This document shows, in pieces, positions 1-6,751 of a DNA stretch of 64,000 nucleotides (position 1 is the stretch's first letter; every line of letters starts with the position of its first letter). The notes under the pieces are model-generated. The model saw only the letters and a list, made by a program, of their open reading frames with translations, did not search any database and had not been told where the DNA came from. The stretch is from contig NZ_AUJB01000012.1 of the NCBI RefSeq assembly GCF_000424005.1, positions 62,001-126,000 of the forward strand. The letters are read 5' to 3'. The position numbers were made by a program, and so were the translations under genes. The DNA comes from Pseudobutyrivibrio ruminis CF1b (lineage in GTDB: Bacteria > Bacillota > Clostridia > Lachnospirales > Lachnospiraceae).

Positions 1-708
1 AATATTTTCATTGGCTGTGGCTGTAGATACTGTACTTAAAACCTGATCCACATTCTCCTTTGAAACAAGGTATTTTGATACATACTGGTCAAAGGCTAAT
101 TTATCCTTCGCACATCTTGCGGCGTACAAAAGACAATGAAGGCTTTGCTTTTTCTGATTGCGCTTGTAGGCCTCGTCGAAACACTGCATTGCTTCTGTAA
201 AAAAGAATAATCGTGAAAAGGCGCAACCTAAATTGTGATAAACATCTCCCTCCACTATCTTAGGCATGGTCTTTGCCACATCATCTGCAAGGAGCGTCTC
301 ATACTCATAGATAGCATCAACCAGTTTATCCTTAGCCATAAGTCTGTCAGCTCTCAGCTTCTTTCGCTCTGCCTCAGATTTATTTTCGAAGGTGGCTATG
401 ATAGCTAAAATATCTTTTATCTCTTTGTTAGAGGCATAACCATTAGAACCAAGAATATGTCCAACAAAGATGTGAAGAGGTGCATTGTTCTGAACTAATC
501 CCTGAAGCTCGGCAGCAAGCTTTGGCTCTTTAAGTTCTCTTCCAACCCAGTTGCAAAGCTCCGGACTCATCAGTTTCGAAGAAAGCAAATAAACGTTGTT
601 AAGAATATAATAACTTAGCTCCTCCAAAGAATAAACATTAAGAGCAGCCTCTTCGATATAATATGGCGTTGCTGATAACGCATTTTTGCAATAGATTAAT
701 GTGCTCAT
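1..708 (-). CDS. TPR-like conserved hypothetical protein (3' end outside window)
   Basis: An open frame runs from an ATG at 708 to the window edge without a stop, giving 236 residues; the C-terminus is missing. The translation starts MSTLIYCKNALSATPYYIEE. It is alpha-helical in character, with a stretch (GDVYHNLGCAFSRLFFF then AMQCFDEAYKR) that looks like a tetratricopeptide repeat. A GTAGGAAT ribosome site precedes the ATG, and the upstream gene stops only 6 bases earlier, so it is the third gene of an operon with the actin/Hsp70-like and giant proteins. TPR proteins usually mediate protein contacts, which fits a partner of the ATPase-like protein. The function is unknown; the operon assignment is strong, the TPR call moderate. 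Confidence 0.75.
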   Translation of the reverse strand, partial: MSTLIYCKNALSATPYYIEEAALNVYSLEELSYYILNNVYLLSSKLMSPELCNWVGRELKEPKLAAELQGLVQNNAPLHIFVGHILGSNGYASNKEIKDILAIIATFENKSEAERKKLRADRLMAKDKLVDAIYEYETLLADDVAKTMPKIVEGDVYHNLGCAFSRLFFFTEAMQCFDEAYKRNQKKQSLHCLLYAARCAKDKLAFDQYVSKYLVSKENVDQVLSTVSTATANENI

Positions 709-714
709 ATATTC

Positions 715-1950
715 CTACTCTGTGGTAATAGTGTGTTCCCAGCTCTTGCCAGATGCTGGTGATATTTCTCCAAATCCCAAATCTGTAATGGTGATTGAGA
801 CAGCCACATCAGAAACCGGCCTTGCCTCGATACGAAGACGGGTGGTTCTGTTTTCACGTTTTGGCATGTCTGTAAGCTCCAAAACCTCCGAATGTGCTTC
901 CCTTGATTCTGGTCGCTGGATAAAGAATTCTATTTCAGGCTCTCCGTCCAGGATTACCTCGCATTCGCCTTTAACGTCATACCAGCTTTCACCGGCATCG
1001 ATTAAGGTGAAAAACTTCATAACATTGTTTTCTAATATTTTAATTGAAAGATTAAGCTTTAGGTCGTTGTCTCCAATGTAGATAAACGGCCAGTCTCTCT
1101 TTCCATCCTTTATAAAGCCGCCGTAGCAGGCGCCTTTTGAATAAAGATTCTTGCCAAGGAATACCTTTCTTCCCTTGCAAAGATGGGAAAGACTCACCTT
1201 CATCCATTCTCCATCAAAGCCATCTCCCACCAGATAAACTGATGAGTAAAGGTTGCTTCCAAATGTGTCTGAGATAACCTCATCAAAAAGCTCATCCCTG
1301 TTATCGGTGATTTCACCGTGATTGGTAACATTAAGATTAATCAACTGAGGGCGTGTAGTCTGATTACGGTGAAGTGTGCAGGACACCATATTGGTACCGC
1401 TGTAATCAAACAATGCCACGTTGTAAAGAAACAGCTCAGGCTTCTGTGACAGTGCATAGTAATAGAAGCATTCACTTCTGTCTATAAGCATCACATGGTT
1501 TTGATCAATACCAAGCTTTGAAGCCACATGATTCATCAGCTCCATCACCTCAAGATTAATCTGCTCCACGCAGATAACAAGCTTTTCCACCTCGCTAAGG
1601 GCAGCCATTGGCCCTGGAATGGAAAACAGTTTCTTGAAGAAAATGGTAAGCAAATCTCTGGCGCCATAAGTGTCAGAATCGATTACTATCTGACCGTCGC
1701 GAAGGGCCAGGTTAAAAAGCTCCTCAACAAGAACGGCTTCCTTAAGCCTGCTCATCTTGATAGCTTCCTCACCGAAGAACCACTGGCCCATACCTATTCT
1801 CTTGGCCAGCACAGTAGGGATGGAATAATTTTCCTCACCCAAGATTGTGCTTATAGTAGCAGGCTCATCCATATTCGAATTGTAAATGCTAAGAACTGTA
1901 TTCCTTGAACTAATATCAATTCCTACATATGTGCCCTCTGTAGTTCCCAT
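715..1950 (-). CDS. Actin/Hsp70-fold ATPase-like protein (DUF5716-type)
   Basis: This 411-residue protein begins with YVGIDISSRNTVLSIYN (about residues 8-24), which matches the phosphate-1 loop layout of the actin/Hsp70/sugar-kinase superfamily (VGIDLGTTNS in DnaK). A later VYLVGDGFDGEWM resembles the adenosine-motif region of that fold. I recall the family as DUF5716, found mainly in Lachnospiraceae; that name is from memory, not a search. The start has a good AAGGAG site 4 bases ahead of the ATG. It lies between the giant protein (8-base gap) and the TPR-like protein, so the three are probably co-transcribed and act together. It lacks the long substrate-binding C-terminus of DnaK, so it is not a classical chaperone. 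Substrate and role are unknown. Confidence 0.8.
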   Translation of the reverse strand: MGTTEGTYVGIDISSRNTVLSIYNSNMDEPATISTILGEENYSIPTVLAKRIGMGQWFFGEEAIKMSRLKEAVLVEELFNLALRDGQIVIDSDTYGARDLLTIFFKKLFSIPGPMAALSEVEKLVICVEQINLEVMELMNHVASKLGIDQNHVMLIDRSECFYYYALSQKPELFLYNVALFDYSGTNMVSCTLHRNQTTRPQLINLNVTNHGEITDNRDELFDEVISDTFGSNLYSSVYLVGDGFDGEWMKVSLSHLCKGRKVFLGKNLYSKGACYGGFIKDGKRDWPFIYIGDNDLKLNLSIKILENNVMKFFTLIDAGESWYDVKGECEVILDGEPEIEFFIQRPESREAHSEVLELTDMPKRENRTTRLRIEARPVSDVAVSITITDLGFGEISPASGKSWEHTITTE

Positions 1951-1958
1951 AAAACTCC

Positions 1959-4900
1959 TTAAATAATTGAAAATAAATCTCTGGTCACAGCATCAAGTCC
2001 CTGATAAATCTTCACATCCTCAGCCAGGTCATAAACTTCGTTGTAAAGGCTGTGTCTTGCGATACGATTCATCAGTGCGTATCTGCCCTGAGTCTGTTCA
2101 AGCTCATCACTAAGTACAAATGTCTCAGATTTAAGTGGCTCGTCTGAAACATCATCTCTGTAAATTTCGTATTTCAGCTCGTCACCGTAGAACAGGATAA
2201 ACTGTTTTACATAAAGACCGTCGTACATTTCAATCATATCTTCTTTGACAGCTGGTGAGCCGTTTACAGAGTAGATAATATCAACTGCTTTGCGCTTGTC
2301 TGTATTAAATTCGATGAAATGCTTGTCATAAAGGTGATATTTAATCTTAAGCTTCTCATCGCACTTTGCAAAAAATCCAAAGTACTGATTGCGAAGGATG
2401 GCATCTGCAAGAAGAATATCAAGCATCGTGTAATCATCCTCGTCTAAATCTGTACCAGTACACAGGTATTTCAAAAGAGCAATTCTCATACTCTCAGAAA
2501 CATTGAGCCCCTTCTTAAATCTGTTGTAAATATATGCAAAAATCTTCTCAGGAATCTCTGCCTGATTAGCAAGATAATCGTGAGCCTCGTAATTAAGGAA
2601 TGCCTCCACCACCATCTTGTTGTTCTTGCGGGACACGTATGTCTCAAAGACATCCATAATCTTTGGACAAAGGAAATCCCTGTATAGAGCCTGGGTGATA
2701 ATTCTCTCCCCAAACTCCACAACATCCTCGCCCTTTTCAAAGGCACTTTCGTAGATTGAAAGCATCAAATCTGTAGGACCTACGAAGAATTGTACAAGGT
2801 AGCGAATCATGTCTGAATGGATGTATCCCTGTGAAATAAGTCCTGCTGTAAACAGAATCAGGAAATCATCTGATTTCTCTGGCTCCTTGTTAATCATAAA
2901 CTGGCAAAGCTTTGTTGCTGGAGCAGGCTTTAGCAATGAGGAATTAGTGTGCTTTAACATGTAGTAAGCTTCCTCATATTTGCTCCTGACAATAAACACT
3001 TCAAGCACTGCTGCTATAACCTCAGCATTAAGAGACTTTAAATCTGCCTCCTGCATAAAATGTTTTTCCAAAACAGCTTCCCTGTTATTGAATCTAAGGA
3101 TTTCAATGAGCTGAGGATAAATCTTGTCCAGATAGTCTGTAGATATCTGTTTTGATTCCATGATAAGCTCTGCTGCCTCAGCATCTGCAGATGAATAATC
3201 CTTAGTGTTTGAGCTATGAGCAAATCTCATAAGTGCGTAAGGCAGATTAAGAGTAGAAAGCTCTTTTAACTTTTCAGTGTAGCCCTCTGTGTTGATAATG
3301 TCCTCTGTAAAGTAGGCTTCATCATCCACAAAAAGATAGCCATTGTTATCCTCGAAGAGAACAACTCCTGTACTGCCAATGTAATTAATGTATGCTTTGT
3401 GATCAGAAATATTGGCAATGGTAGGCGCCTTAAATTCCTCCTGATACAAAAATACTCTTCTGATATCTGGATTGATAACCGCAAGCTTTTTCTTGAAGGA
3501 AAGCTCTGATATAAGACGAGCCACCTCTTTATCAAAAATACCAAGCTCCATCAGGCGCTGGTAACAAACTGCAAGATTGTCATCTAGACGACCTAGCTTT
3601 AACTGCTCCAAAGCAAATGATTCTATAGCACTCTCGTAATGCTCATAAGTGTCATAGTCCTCATCCTTGTGAAGGATAATGTTTGCGTAAAGCAATGCCT
3701 TTTTATCATAAGACAGATTGCTGTTGTATTTGAAGAACATGGTAAGAAGCTGTGGCAGCTTATCTACCGAGTAAGCTGGAAGCGCCTCCATATATGCCTC
3801 GAAGATACCTGACACATGAAGATTGTGCTCAATGGCCATTCCAAACCATTTCAAGAATTCTGGCTCAATGTAAGGAGCTCTTAAAAGGTAAGTGACTATA
3901 GCCAAGAGAAGCTTCATGTCTGGATATACTTCGTAACACTCCTCCAAAATAGGCAATACCTTTGGATTGTAATTGCGCTCTGTCTCCAGAAGATGAATCA
4001 TCTGGATGGCCATATCTTTATTGATAGCCTTTTTCTTCTTAGCCCAGTTTAATACCTTGATAGTGAGCTCATCAAAGCTTGAAATGAGGTATGGATCCTG
4101 AAGGAAAATGTAGTAGGCCTCGATGTATAAAAGAGGTGTATCCCATCCATCATCTACCCATTTTCCAATCTCTCTCAGCTTTGCTGTAGGATTCTTGATG
4201 TATTCCTTTCGAAGGAACAAAAGGAACCAGAAAATATGAACATCTCCGCGATGCTCTCTAAAGATGCCTTCGATGTTTTCTGTAAGGCGATCCACGTAAT
4301 CTTCTTCACGCTCGATAAGTGTACAAATGTAGAGAAGGAATGCCCACTCTCTGCTGCCCTTATCCTCGATGCTGCGCTTTAAATCCTGGATAATCCAGAG
4401 TGCTTCCTGCTTTTGATTGTTAGTCACATATAAAAATGCCTTTACAAGAAGTATGAAATTGCTGCTGCCAACTTCGTCAGAAAGACTGTTTATAATCTCA
4501 AGAGACTCGGCGCACCACTGGCTGGTGGTAACACGGCGAAGTCTGTAATCTTCGTATAAACGAAATGCCTTTAAAATCTTTTTGTTGTGAGAGAACTCCT
4601 CTGACTCTAATGACACGCCCTCTTTATCTGCTGTTGCAAGGACTGTAATCTCCTTGTGGATGTCTCTATAGTCGAAAGAAATCTTTGCAAAATTGATTCC
4701 GGCGTGCATCTTATCCTTGTGGATGTAGTAGCTCATATTGAAAATGGAGCCAAGGAAGAAATCTCCAGTAATGTGCTCCTTTTCAACTGAGATGAAATCT
4801 GCATCGCAAGTGACAGTGATATCGATGAAGCCCCATGTAGAACGGCTGATTTCTATCTCGCCTTTAACATTTCCTTCTACCTCGTAGTATGAATCCTGTC

Positions 4901-5492
4901 GCTCCTCTAAGTTGAAAGTCATCTTTGCTTTCAGTCCGCAGGATACTAAGAACTCATCTACATTTACAGCTGCGATAGGTGCAGCTTTAAAGCCTCTGTA
5001 AAGAAGCTTGGTGCGTTTGTCCTGATCTGAAATAAACTCTGCGAATCTGTCTGAATAAAACAAAGAAACAGCTTCCACAAAATGATTCTGCGCAAACTCT
5101 GCATATTCCTGAAGTGTGCGAATCTGACCTATGCTGCATGTCAGTGGACGTTTTACATAGGTAATAGAAAATGGCAGCTTCTTTTCCATGCCTACAGTGA
5201 CAATGATGAAATTGCCCTTGAGACATTCTGAAGCTTTGTAATTGTAATCATCAACAAGATAATCGATACGAACACTAACACCATCAAACCACGGATTAGT
5301 GATACGAACATAAGGATTATCGCAGTAAACCACACCTCTTGCCTTAACATCATTTGTACTCTTAAAATATATGCTGCCCGAAAAGGCATCATTAATAAAG
5401 CAGGTTTCTTCTATCTGCTCTGATTCAAACTCAATATTTGGTTTTAAGTCGTCGAATTTATCTTCGGAAATACGATAGATTCTTTTTCTCAA
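1959..5492 (-). CDS. Giant conserved protein with beta-sandwich N-terminus and helical-repeat body (DUF5717-type)
   Basis: The frame can be read from an ATG at 5513 (1184 residues), but that ATG has no ribosome site. A GAGGAG lies just inside it, 5 bases ahead of an in-frame TTG at 5492, so I prefer the TTG start (MRKRIYRISEDKFDDL, about 1177 residues). The first 300 residues look like two related beta-sandwich modules (FSGSIYFKSTNDV and EVEGNVKGEIEISRSTWG regions). The rest, to about 1000, is helix-rich and solenoid-like, followed by a beta-rich C-terminus. No signal peptide or membrane segment is visible, so it is likely cytosolic. It is the first gene of the operon with the actin/Hsp70-like protein. 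I recall the family as DUF5717. The function is unknown; scaffold or client-binding partner is inference. Confidence 0.8.
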   Translation of the reverse strand: MRKRIYRISEDKFDDLKPNIEFESEQIEETCFINDAFSGSIYFKSTNDVKARGVVYCDNPYVRITNPWFDGVSVRIDYLVDDYNYKASECLKGNFIIVTVGMEKKLPFSITYVKRPLTCSIGQIRTLQEYAEFAQNHFVEAVSLFYSDRFAEFISDQDKRTKLLYRGFKAAPIAAVNVDEFLVSCGLKAKMTFNLEERQDSYYEVEGNVKGEIEISRSTWGFIDITVTCDADFISVEKEHITGDFFLGSIFNMSYYIHKDKMHAGINFAKISFDYRDIHKEITVLATADKEGVSLESEEFSHNKKILKAFRLYEDYRLRRVTTSQWCAESLEIINSLSDEVGSSNFILLVKAFLYVTNNQKQEALWIIQDLKRSIEDKGSREWAFLLYICTLIEREEDYVDRLTENIEGIFREHRGDVHIFWFLLFLRKEYIKNPTAKLREIGKWVDDGWDTPLLYIEAYYIFLQDPYLISSFDELTIKVLNWAKKKKAINKDMAIQMIHLLETERNYNPKVLPILEECYEVYPDMKLLLAIVTYLLRAPYIEPEFLKWFGMAIEHNLHVSGIFEAYMEALPAYSVDKLPQLLTMFFKYNSNLSYDKKALLYANIILHKDEDYDTYEHYESAIESFALEQLKLGRLDDNLAVCYQRLMELGIFDKEVARLISELSFKKKLAVINPDIRRVFLYQEEFKAPTIANISDHKAYINYIGSTGVVLFEDNNGYLFVDDEAYFTEDIINTEGYTEKLKELSTLNLPYALMRFAHSSNTKDYSSADAEAAELIMESKQISTDYLDKIYPQLIEILRFNNREAVLEKHFMQEADLKSLNAEVIAAVLEVFIVRSKYEEAYYMLKHTNSSLLKPAPATKLCQFMINKEPEKSDDFLILFTAGLISQGYIHSDMIRYLVQFFVGPTDLMLSIYESAFEKGEDVVEFGERIITQALYRDFLCPKIMDVFETYVSRKNNKMVVEAFLNYEAHDYLANQAEIPEKIFAYIYNRFKKGLNVSESMRIALLKYLCTGTDLDEDDYTMLDILLADAILRNQYFGFFAKCDEKLKIKYHLYDKHFIEFNTDKRKAVDIIYSVNGSPAVKEDMIEMYDGLYVKQFILFYGDELKYEIYRDDVSDEPLKSETFVLSDELEQTQGRYALMNRIARHSLYNEVYDLAEDVKIYQGLDAVTRDLFSII

Positions 5493-5546
5493 AACATTCT
5501 CCTCTTTTATCATGTGGGTAATACTAACCCAAGCATATTATTTATT

Positions 5547-5574
5547 AGTATAGCACAACATATAGTGTTTTCAA
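5547..5574 (-). promoter_or_regulatory. Promoter of the actin/Hsp70-like operon
   Basis: On the minus strand a TTGAAA (-35, 5574-5569) is followed after 16 bases by TATACT (-10, 5552-5547), which is preceded by TG to make an extended -10. It lies 34 bases before the upstream candidate start of the giant protein. This is a good match to a housekeeping sigma-A promoter, read by eye only. Confidence 0.5.
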
Positions 5575-5595
5575 ACGTATTGGGTGACAAAAATA

Positions 5596-5624
5596 TGGAT
5601 AAAATACAGACTCAGTGCTATTAT
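5596..5624 (+). promoter_or_regulatory. Candidate promoter of the aminotransferase gene
   Basis: TGGATA (5596-5601) and TATTAT (5619-5624) are 17 bases apart, and a TG one base before the -10 makes an extended -10. It sits 38 bases ahead of the ATG at 5663. The -35 is weak (4 of 6). Confidence 0.4.
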
Positions 5625-5662
5625 ATAAGGCAAGAAAATTTTAACCTTTAAGGAGGCTTTCA

Positions 5663-6751
5663 ATGATAAAGCACAAGGATCATTTTCATGGAAGTGATTT
5701 AGAAAAAATAGAGCAGATTTACGGCATAAAAAAAGAGGACATCATTAGCTTTTCTGCAAATGTTAATCCCCTGGGAATATCTCCTAAGCTTAAGGATGGA
5801 ATTGCCGCAAATATTGACTGCATCACATCTTATCCAGACAGAGATTATGTAGAGCTCAGAAAATGCATCGCAGAATACTGCAACACTGAAACAGAAAACA
5901 TCATCGTAGGAAATGGTTCTACAGAGCTTATCTCACTTTTCATTCAGATTGAAAAGCCTTCAAAAGCTTTAATACTTGGACCTACATATTCAGAGTACGA
6001 AAGAGAAATCGCTTTAGGCGGCGGAAAGAGCATCTACTATCCTCTTCGCGAAGATAATGATTTTGTTTTAGATGTTGACCATTTCATCAGCAAGCTTACA
6101 GAAGATATTGACATGCTTGTTATCTGCAATCCTAACAATCCTACAGGAACAGCAATCAACAATCACGATATGAGAAAGATTCTTGATGCCTGCAAGGAAT
6201 GCGATATCTTTGTTATGGTTGATGAGACTTATGTGGAGTTTGCAGAAAACATCAATGAGGTTTCTTCTGTAACTCTTACACGCACTTATTCAAACATTGC
6301 AATCCTTCGAGGCACTTCAAAGTTCTTTGCTGCCCCTGGTCTTCGTCTTGGTTATGCAATCTGTTCCAACACAGATTTGATGCAGACTATCAACCAGCGC
6401 AAAGATCCTTGGACAATTAATTCAATTGCAGTTGTTGCCGGAAAGTTAATGTTTTCAGATAAAGAATATATCGAAAAGACTCGTAATCTTATTGCGACTG
6501 AAAGAAATCGTTTATACGATATTTTTGATAAGAGCACACGTTTTAAGCCTTACTGGCCACATGGAAACTTCATGCTTCTTCGCATCTTAGAAGACGGCCT
6601 TACCAGCCAGGAGCTCTTCGACCGATGCATCAAAGAAGGTCTCATGATTCGCGATTGTTCTACTTTCCCATATCTGGGCGAGAATTACATTCGCTTCTGC
6701 TTCATGAATCCAGAGGATAATGATAGACTTGCTGCTCTTCTTTTGAAGTAG
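5663..6751 (+). CDS. PLP-dependent aminotransferase, HisC/CobD-like
   Basis: This 362-residue fold-type I PLP enzyme has the features of the histidinol-phosphate aminotransferase / threonine-phosphate decarboxylase group: an N-terminal FSANVNPLGISPKLK, the NPNNPTG substrate/cofactor motif, VDETYVEF with the pyridine-binding Asp, and TSKFFAAPGLRLGYA carrying the Schiff-base Lys. The start has AAGGAGG 6 bases upstream. It stands alone, with neither histidine nor cobalamin genes next to it, and a terminator follows directly. The first segment is more like CobD than HisC, but CobD belongs to cobalamin synthesis and nothing here supports that pathway. Substrate left open; class confident. Confidence 0.8.
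   Translation: MIKHKDHFHGSDLEKIEQIYGIKKEDIISFSANVNPLGISPKLKDGIAANIDCITSYPDRDYVELRKCIAEYCNTETENIIVGNGSTELISLFIQIEKPSKALILGPTYSEYEREIALGGGKSIYYPLREDNDFVLDVDHFISKLTEDIDMLVICNPNNPTGTAINNHDMRKILDACKECDIFVMVDETYVEFAENINEVSSVTLTRTYSNIAILRGTSKFFAAPGLRLGYAICSNTDLMQTINQRKDPWTINSIAVVAGKLMFSDKEYIEKTRNLIATERNRLYDIFDKSTRFKPYWPHGNFMLLRILEDGLTSQELFDRCIKEGLMIRDCSTFPYLGENYIRFCFMNPEDNDRLAALLLK

Follow-up and report, generated by a model that had tools for sequence, protein, structure and literature searches.

The stretch of DNA analysed here, a 64-kb window from Pseudobutyrivibrio ruminis CF1b, carries a three-gene operon at its left edge, on the minus strand. This operon looks like what is left, around a pseudo-Hsp70, of a larger operon with several Hsp70s that seems not to have been described before. 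It is near-universal in Lachnospiraceae, and a fourth gene, CC, which lies just outside the window, follows the presence of FliG. We propose, with a probability of roughly 0.6, that it is what Lachnospiraceae have of a multi-Hsp70 chaperone machine specific to the order; here an Ssz1-like, ATPase-dead DUF5716 protein would sit in a constitutive scaffold, membrane-tethered in flagellated species. Throughout, "the family" is taken to be Lachnospiraceae, judging from the nearest named relatives of its genomes.

The initial annotation of this sequence described a system of three tightly packed minus-strand genes. The genes are real, and their coordinates and gaps proved correct (8 bases between DUF5717 and DUF5716, 6 bases between DUF5716 and the tetratricopeptide repeat (TPR)-like gene), but the operon extends past the third of them. 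The features are as follows.

5547..5574, minus strand: plausible sigma-70-like promoter, TTGAAA-16-TATACT with an extended -10 (consensus match 10/12)
1959..5513, minus strand: DUF5717 (PF18984 and PF18983), 1184 amino acids, scaffold-like (Pfam E 6e-211 and 2.7e-72)
715..1950, minus strand: DUF5716 (PF18980), 411 amino acids, apparent lidless pseudo-Hsp70 (Pfam E 1.5e-102, structure model, Foldseek)
1..708, minus strand: TPR-like protein, cut by the window edge (full 277 amino acids at L004:13875-14708)
L004:12642-13847, outside the window, minus strand: CC, the fourth gene, 401 amino acids, 27 bases after the TPR gene

The window proteins are members of Pfam DUF5716_C and DUF5717 (PF18980, PF18983, PF18984), each of which Pfam calls a "family of unknown function". 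The DUF5716 and DUF5717 profiles score 343, 703.1 and 244 bits against gathering cut-offs of 34.7, 25 and 25, covering DUF5717 nearly end to end and residues 123-409 of DUF5716; an NCBIfam search gave no match for any of the three window proteins. New beyond these entries are the recognition of DUF5716 as an Hsp70, the fourth gene and the larger operon with several Hsp70s.

Folds and catalytic positions of the operon proteins

As modelled, DUF5716 is a lidless Hsp70 fold, consisting of a nucleotide-binding domain (NBD) and the beta part of the substrate-binding domain (SBD-beta). The AlphaFold2 (AF2) model, made from an alignment of 53 sequences, has a pLDDT of 89.2 and a pTM of 0.77, and its top Foldseek match is DnaK (E 7.7e-19), with query TM-scores of up to 0.62. 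The best 50 PDB matches have Hsp70-family titles or are such complexes, except for two matches to the ciliary C1 central apparatus, for which the match list does not say what the chains are. Among them are lid-truncated DnaK, Hsp110 and the core of the ribosome-associated complex (RAC) with Ssz1; in that entry (6sr6, E 2.7e-15) we take the matched chain to be Ssz1. Alignments to PDB chains of 493-649 residues span 503-553 columns, gaps included. No title of MreB, ParM or another actin-like filament is named among the best 50, and a PDB sequence search with DUF5716 gave no match. The fold comparison was the refuting test set beforehand for the proposed actin/Hsp70 protein: the predicted structure is of the Hsp70 type with DnaK-type best matches, and an actin, MreB or ParM identity was rejected on the Hsp70-type best 50.

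The same protein had been said to lack a chaperone tail, which is half right. The helical SBD-alpha lid is absent, the chain of 411 residues stopping right after the last SBD-beta strand (403-409), but the beta part of the tail is present in both the AF2 and the Foldseek results, as a predicted SBD-beta-like sandwich behind the NBD with strands within about 289-409. The phosphate-1 loop fares similarly. It belongs to an actin/Hsp70 fold as claimed, but it is degenerate rather than clear, reading GIDISSRNT where the organism's own DnaK has GIDLGTTNS. The phosphate-2 motif is DYSGTNMV, compared with DLGGGTFD in DnaK.

Four catalytic residues (E. coli numbering) were compared: K70, E171, T199 and D201. 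None is kept in 126 of 134 family DUF5716 rows or in 19 of 20 rows of Hsp70-B, the DUF5716 protein of other families; the other 9 rows keep one. By sequence, DUF5716 looks like a pseudo-Hsp70, that is, a pseudoenzyme. Judged by alignment, the family proteins are also missing most of the part of the NBD that in DnaK contains subdomain IIB. This segment is shortened by about half: the stretch from phosphate-2 to the adenosine motif has a median of 62 residues in the family, compared with 131 in Hsp70-B and 134 in DnaK.

A different view would have DUF5716 as an active single-Hsp70 chaperone or actin-like motor that hydrolyses ATP and cycles on clients bound to DUF5717. The Hsp70 fold would suit such an activity, and of 134 family rows 110 retain D8 and 133 retain G341, so nucleotide binding may persist and an ATP-binding module or a slow switch is conceivable. 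A working cycle is nevertheless improbable, as 0 of 154 rows keep more than one of the four catalytic residues, the phosphate-2 motif and the IIB segment are altered as described, and no relative of the GrpE protein was found in the family loci examined. A motor is further disfavoured by the lack of MreB or ParM titles among the best 50 fold matches.

The largest protein of the operon, DUF5717, is predicted to be a series of beta domains and alpha-solenoids (AF2 model, pLDDT 86.3, pTM 0.59). From the N-terminus it would comprise a beta-sandwich (27-120), a helical segment (134-191), a second beta-sandwich (206-293) and an alpha-solenoid (305-671), followed by a beta domain (674-738), another alpha-solenoid (746-1060) and a C-terminal beta domain (1064-1133). 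The initial annotation's two beta-sandwiches and long helical body are thus recovered in the model, whereas the beta domains at 674-738 and 1064-1133 had gone unlisted. Foldseek returned partial matches with query TM-scores of at most 0.16, the best to ciliary central apparatus chains (E 1.7e-7) and weaker ones to the solenoid proteins of Ski, NatA and IFT-A and to Ig-like proteins. These matches would suit a scaffold role, and common origin does not follow from them. A PDB sequence search with DUF5717 gave no match. The TPR-like character proposed for the third protein is weak in the window protein itself (TPR_2 E 4e-4, below the Pfam cut-off) but firm in its homologue at L065:2612-3775 (TPR_19 E 2.7e-20).

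A larger multi-Hsp70 operon and its probable reduction in Lachnospiraceae

Elsewhere in the order, outside the family, the DUF5716 profile picks up longer open reading frames (ORFs) of roughly 470-580 amino acids, often as an adjacent pair. We read 20 loci, 16 of them outside the family, and found a larger, recurrent operon. Its first genes encode a small DUF5717 N-part (~400 amino acids), the DUF5717 main part (~900), Hsp70-A (~558) and a GrpE-domain protein; the later ones encode Hsp70-B (the equivalent of DUF5716), Hsp70-C (~545), an Hsp70 extended by a VWA domain (VWA-Hsp70, ~692) and the TPR protein (~387). A few larger operons have a longer, apparently fused scaffold, and CC adjoins the larger operon in 4 of the 16 loci outside the family. 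Hsp70-A, the GrpE protein, Hsp70-B, Hsp70-C and VWA-Hsp70 are all present in 14 of these 16; L077 and L080 are without some of them, which contig ends or the ORF caller may explain.

Domain scans agree with these assignments. The GrpE protein, of 560-645 amino acids (279 in one locus), has a C-terminal GrpE domain above the Pfam cut-off in 11 of 11 tested, and the extended Hsp70 a Pfam VWA domain in 7 of 7. Hsp70-profile matches of the scanned Hsp70-A, Hsp70-C and VWA-Hsp70 stop at 477-514 of 599, before the lid region. All four catalytic residues are intact in 14 of 14 Hsp70-A, 16 of 16 Hsp70-C and 14 of 15 VWA-Hsp70 rows (the miss being a split ORF), as in the organism's own DnaK. An operon with three lidless Hsp70s with intact catalytic residues, a pseudo-Hsp70 and a GrpE protein is apparently undescribed. 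With its three catalytic Hsp70s and GrpE, this operon of the relatives lends the initial proposal of a chaperone machine support that had not been expected. The window protein itself looks like a pseudo-Hsp70 rather than an active one.

The direction of change comes from a tree of 47 rows, rooted on Hsp70-A, Hsp70-C, VWA-Hsp70 and DnaK. It held 4 of 14 Hsp70-A, 6 of 16 Hsp70-C, 4 of 15 VWA-Hsp70, 14 of 53 rows of the family alignment (A3), 18 of 20 Hsp70-B and the organism's own DnaK, leaving out a duplicate window row and the short Hsp70-B of L079. (Alignment A3 comprises the window sequence and 52 of 70 candidates, and A4 the window sequence and 45 of 59.) The 17 family DUF5716 proteins form one clade with 100/100 support inside Hsp70-B. 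Their sister, at 100/99, is the Hsp70-B of L066 from genome G003, which belongs to another family and has the full operon; the remaining Hsp70-B proteins branch outside. As the Lachnospiraceae form is nested inside the full-operon group, the active Hsp70s and GrpE were probably lost. Relatives of Hsp70-A, Hsp70-C, VWA-Hsp70 and the GrpE protein were found in none of 80 named family loci and 140 further family regions, where one ORF of DUF5716 length scored best with Hsp70-C. In the organism's own genome, PF00012 matches DnaK and two short stretches (50.2 and 34.3 bits). Judging from these sequences, loss of Hsp70-A, Hsp70-C, VWA-Hsp70 and GrpE in the Lachnospiraceae line is probably the simplest reading. 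In DnaK, GrpE docks on subdomain IIB. With the IIB segment shrunk in family DUF5716 and the GrpE protein absent, exchange factor and docking lobe seem to have been lost together.

Spread of the operon and the link of CC to FliG

Among close relatives, a called DUF5716 ORF is present in 79 of 80 named loci, accompanied by DUF5717 in 77, TPR in 77 and CC in 76. These counts are lower bounds, since the caller kept the longest overlapping frame, which was sometimes antisense (in L124, where the profile does match DUF5716, and in L125 and L084), and contig ends cut some loci. The 80 loci were chosen by closeness to the window, so that CC carriers are over-represented. In an even draw across the family, DUF5717 is found in 215 of 220 genomes, and in 177 of the 180 of high quality.

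Across 146 genomes of the order, DUF5717 is present in 75 and DUF5716 in 71; 70 have both, 6 have one alone and 70 have neither (Fisher p 2e-34, uncorrected for ancestry). This bears out the dedicated partnership suggested in the initial annotation, for which co-occurrence had been named as a check. Five DUF5717-positive genomes of the order lack a DUF5716 match, and at least one of them (G131, L079) has a diverged Hsp70-B gene in its place. Draws of 299 genomes from the phylum and 148 from the class, including a few of the same order, gave DUF5717 in 5 each: 4 of the family and 1 below the cut-off in the phylum draw, and all 5 of the family in the class draw. The sub-threshold match is the only one beyond the order in these draws, and a wider spread of the operon is not supported by them. 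With VWA-Hsp70 as query, all class-draw matches at E 1e-60 or better end by position 501 of 691, before the VWA part.

The fourth gene has a distribution of its own. CC is predicted to have two transmembrane helices between coiled-coil-like arms; hydropathy gives two such helices in 69 of 72 CC proteins and three in the other 3. A PDB sequence search with CC gave only weak matches to coiled-coil and other proteins, the best at E 0.005. As this gene directly follows TPR and encodes a predicted membrane protein, the description of the system as cytosolic was incomplete. CC occurs in 99 of 220 family genomes: in 97 of the 118 with FliG and in 2 of the 102 without (p 2e-38, uncorrected for ancestry). 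Family FliG scores form two groups, one at about 1e-42 or better and the other between about 1e-37 and 1e-40, and these could represent two flagellar lineages. With the cut between them set after the scores were seen, and two fragmentary FliG rows counted as high scorers, 96 of 99 high scorers carry CC and 18 of 19 low scorers do not; most of the 21 genomes that have FliG and no CC are low scorers. The same holds for position. In 140 regions, out of 150 DUF5717 places taken from the 215 DUF5717-positive genomes, CC lies directly after TPR in 68 of 71 with high-scoring FliG, 0 of 14 with low-scoring FliG and 2 of 55 without FliG. Two family genomes without FliG, G102 (L067) and G110 (L082), keep DUF5717-DUF5716-TPR and have no CC after TPR; in G102 the DUF5717 ORF is just 853 amino acids long.

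Shared ancestry reduces the number of events behind this pattern. On a DUF5717 tree of 135 genomes (135 of 139 DUF5717 proteins, at least 770 amino acids each), CC underwent 6 changes. Among 6 independent pairs with unequal CC, an average of 5.8 show high-scoring FliG differing in the same direction and none in the opposite one (median p 0.031, range 0.031-0.125); in 8 independent pairs differing in high-scoring FliG, CC followed in 6 and was alike in 2 (p 0.031). As a pattern the link between CC and FliG is strong; as independent, tree-corrected evidence it is modest.

It is tempting to extend the link to the whole operon and to regard it as a dedicated device for flagellum assembly or placement. 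CC tracks FliG within the family, FliG is in excess among genomes of the order with the operon (69 of 76, versus 38 of 70 without; p 6e-7, uncorrected for ancestry), and a CheV-like gene, by ORF reading, lies further downstream in L004 and likewise in related loci. Yet such a device seems unlikely. DUF5717 is present in 215 of 220 family genomes and FliG in 118; the 99 genomes with DUF5717 and no FliG speak against a sole flagellar role for the three-gene core, and among the genes examined only CC follows FliG. A flagellar role for the operon as a whole was rejected on these counts. A sporulation link was likewise rejected: Spo0A occurs in 57 of the 76 operon-bearing genomes and in 51 of the 70 others (p 0.85).

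We propose a model where the Lachnospiraceae line shed the GrpE protein and all three catalytic Hsp70s, with the scaffold now a single fused chain, and where what remains could hardly run an Hsp70 ATPase cycle. DUF5716 would serve as a constitutive, Ssz1-like module whose SBD-beta, locked in one state, may grip a peptide from a partner or client. The surfaces that position this module would come from DUF5717 and the TPR protein, and CC may tie the assembly to the membrane in flagellated species. The model supposes a physical complex, peptide binding and membrane tethering, and perhaps a role in building flagella or another envelope structure.

Several observations weigh against this model, beyond the retained D8 and G341. 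Other family genomes have 3-8 PF00012 rows, short and split matches included, and the search for the other Hsp70s covered the neighbourhood of the operon across the family and, of whole genomes, the organism's own only. The Hsp70-B part of the tree is uncertain because of long branches, and a DUF5716 gene tree stands in for a species tree. A Pfam scan of the eight L065 operon proteins, the organism's own CC and the three window proteins recognised no J-domain, and with no J-domain protein recognised in the operon the larger machine departs from the classical Hsp70 system. When pairs are drawn on any FliG, 3.5 change the same way as CC, 0 the opposite way and 11.5 show no difference (median p 0.25), and the FliG-CC link, modest in this respect, rests on few events.

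Two further readings can be set beside our model. One sees a chaperone turned structural platform: a dedicated, membrane-linked machine of four paralogous lidless Hsp70s and a GrpE of its own would have evolved in the order, and the Lachnospiraceae form, left without any ATPase as a constitutive scaffold retained by nearly all members, would dock to flagella through CC in motile species. We regard this as a tentative possibility. The other is a platform for the stress response or for nascent chains, RAC-like, at ribosomes or envelope proteins, with no flagellar link and with CC lost for some other reason that coincides with motility. Ssz1-like anatomy and near-universality in the family whatever the FliG state are in keeping with it, as is an HtpG-like Hsp90 gene that 21 of 79 named loci carry no more than 10 kb away; but no J-domain partner or ribosome-binding element was recognised, and the Hsp90 neighbour is inconstant. 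This reading, too, we regard as a tentative possibility.

Locus setting and described systems

The initial annotation placed the genes behind one strong promoter. The sigma-70-like site at 5574-5547 lies 33 bases before the first ATG of DUF5717. A scan of both strands of 5300-5800 gave 4 such sites, of which it scores highest, where 1.9 are expected by chance; on its consensus match, which is not proof of function, it is a plausible promoter of DUF5717. A divergent class I/II aminotransferase gene (window 5663-6751) has its promoter region in common with the operon. Of 79 named loci, 24 have a relative of this gene close to the operon, and in L068, L071, L073, L074 and L079, from other families, one adjoins the larger operon. 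The Hsp90-type gene (PF00183 E 3e-61, L163:121-2262) is at most 10 kb upstream of the operon where it occurs. No flanking gene is a constant partner: besides the aminotransferase (24) and Hsp90 (21), purC, purF and purB are found in 25, 34 and 36 of 79 loci and a peptidoglycan-binding protein in 28. Beyond CC, the assembly continues with genes reading as a transporter and then regulatory genes. Further downstream, L004:4591-6540 encodes an acidic, lysine-rich protein of 649 amino acids with one predicted transmembrane helix, adjoining the CheV-like gene; both also occur in related Pseudobutyrivibrio loci. The closest named relative by DUF5716 is Pseudobutyrivibrio xylanivorans DSM 14809 (98% identity). 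In the draft of Butyrivibrio fibrisolvens 16/4 (L087, FP929036.1), DUF5717, TPR and other downstream genes appear to be split in two ORFs, perhaps by sequencing errors.

Among described proteins, Ssz1 of yeast RAC lacks the SBD-alpha lid, keeps SBD-beta and is able to bind ATP and unable to hydrolyse it (PMC7083937). DUF5716 appears alike in being lidless, with a modelled SBD-beta and with catalytic residues lost from its sequence. Ssz1 differs in being eukaryotic and in having the J-protein partner Zuo1, whereas no J protein was recognised in the DUF5716 operon. The likeness is one of state only, and a common origin of the pseudo-Hsp70 state does not follow. With the DnaK-DnaJ-GrpE system the larger operon has in common the fold, SBD-beta and a GrpE module. 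It differs in that its scanned Hsp70-A, Hsp70-C and VWA-Hsp70 proteins are lidless by their Pfam matches, in that one member is a pseudoenzyme by sequence and in that no J protein was recognised; the giant scaffold and the VWA domain are extra to it and no part of DnaK-DnaJ-GrpE.

In the open-licence literature we found no description of such a multi-Hsp70 operon, the nearest being GTPase-linked HSP70 systems. These GAP1-N2 GTPase systems include, in the sections of Kaur et al. 2020 (PMC7159879) that bear on them, Hsp70, GrpE and sometimes a second Hsp70 without the peptide-binding domain, in firmicutes among others, together with FNIII proteins fused to DnaJ or TPR. The common parts (Hsp70, GrpE, a second, reduced Hsp70 and a beta-sandwich/TPR-type protein) could suggest that the DUF5717 operon is a biological-conflict, immunity-like system on the same theme. 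However, the GAP1-N2 systems centre on the GTPase and GAP1, and a Pfam scan confined to operon proteins gave no GTPase or GAP1 match in the eight from L065 or the three from the window. Presence in 215 of 220 family genomes is also unlike a patchy defence system, and we consider a conflict role very unlikely. In the open-licence literature a single paper mentions DUF5716, in a setting that its title and abstract mark as unrelated, and DUF5717 is not named; a term search of the DnaK duplication survey PMC11019930 gave no "Lachnospir-". Within the range of these tests, the initial annotation was right about the dedicated partners, the restriction to one lineage and the lack of a described function.

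Few protein machines have been studied as closely as Hsp70, yet the open-licence literature searched yielded no operon of four lidless Hsp70-type proteins, one a pseudoenzyme by sequence, with GrpE and VWA domains. The two forms of the operon, one of which has lost the ATPases and the exchange factor and kept the pseudo-Hsp70, amount to a natural experiment on what a pseudo-Hsp70 can achieve without an ATPase cycle, and the FliG link of CC offers a direct way in that can be tested. Since nearly all members of Lachnospiraceae, a family dominant in the gut, carry the stripped form, it constitutes there a core gene set without an assigned function.

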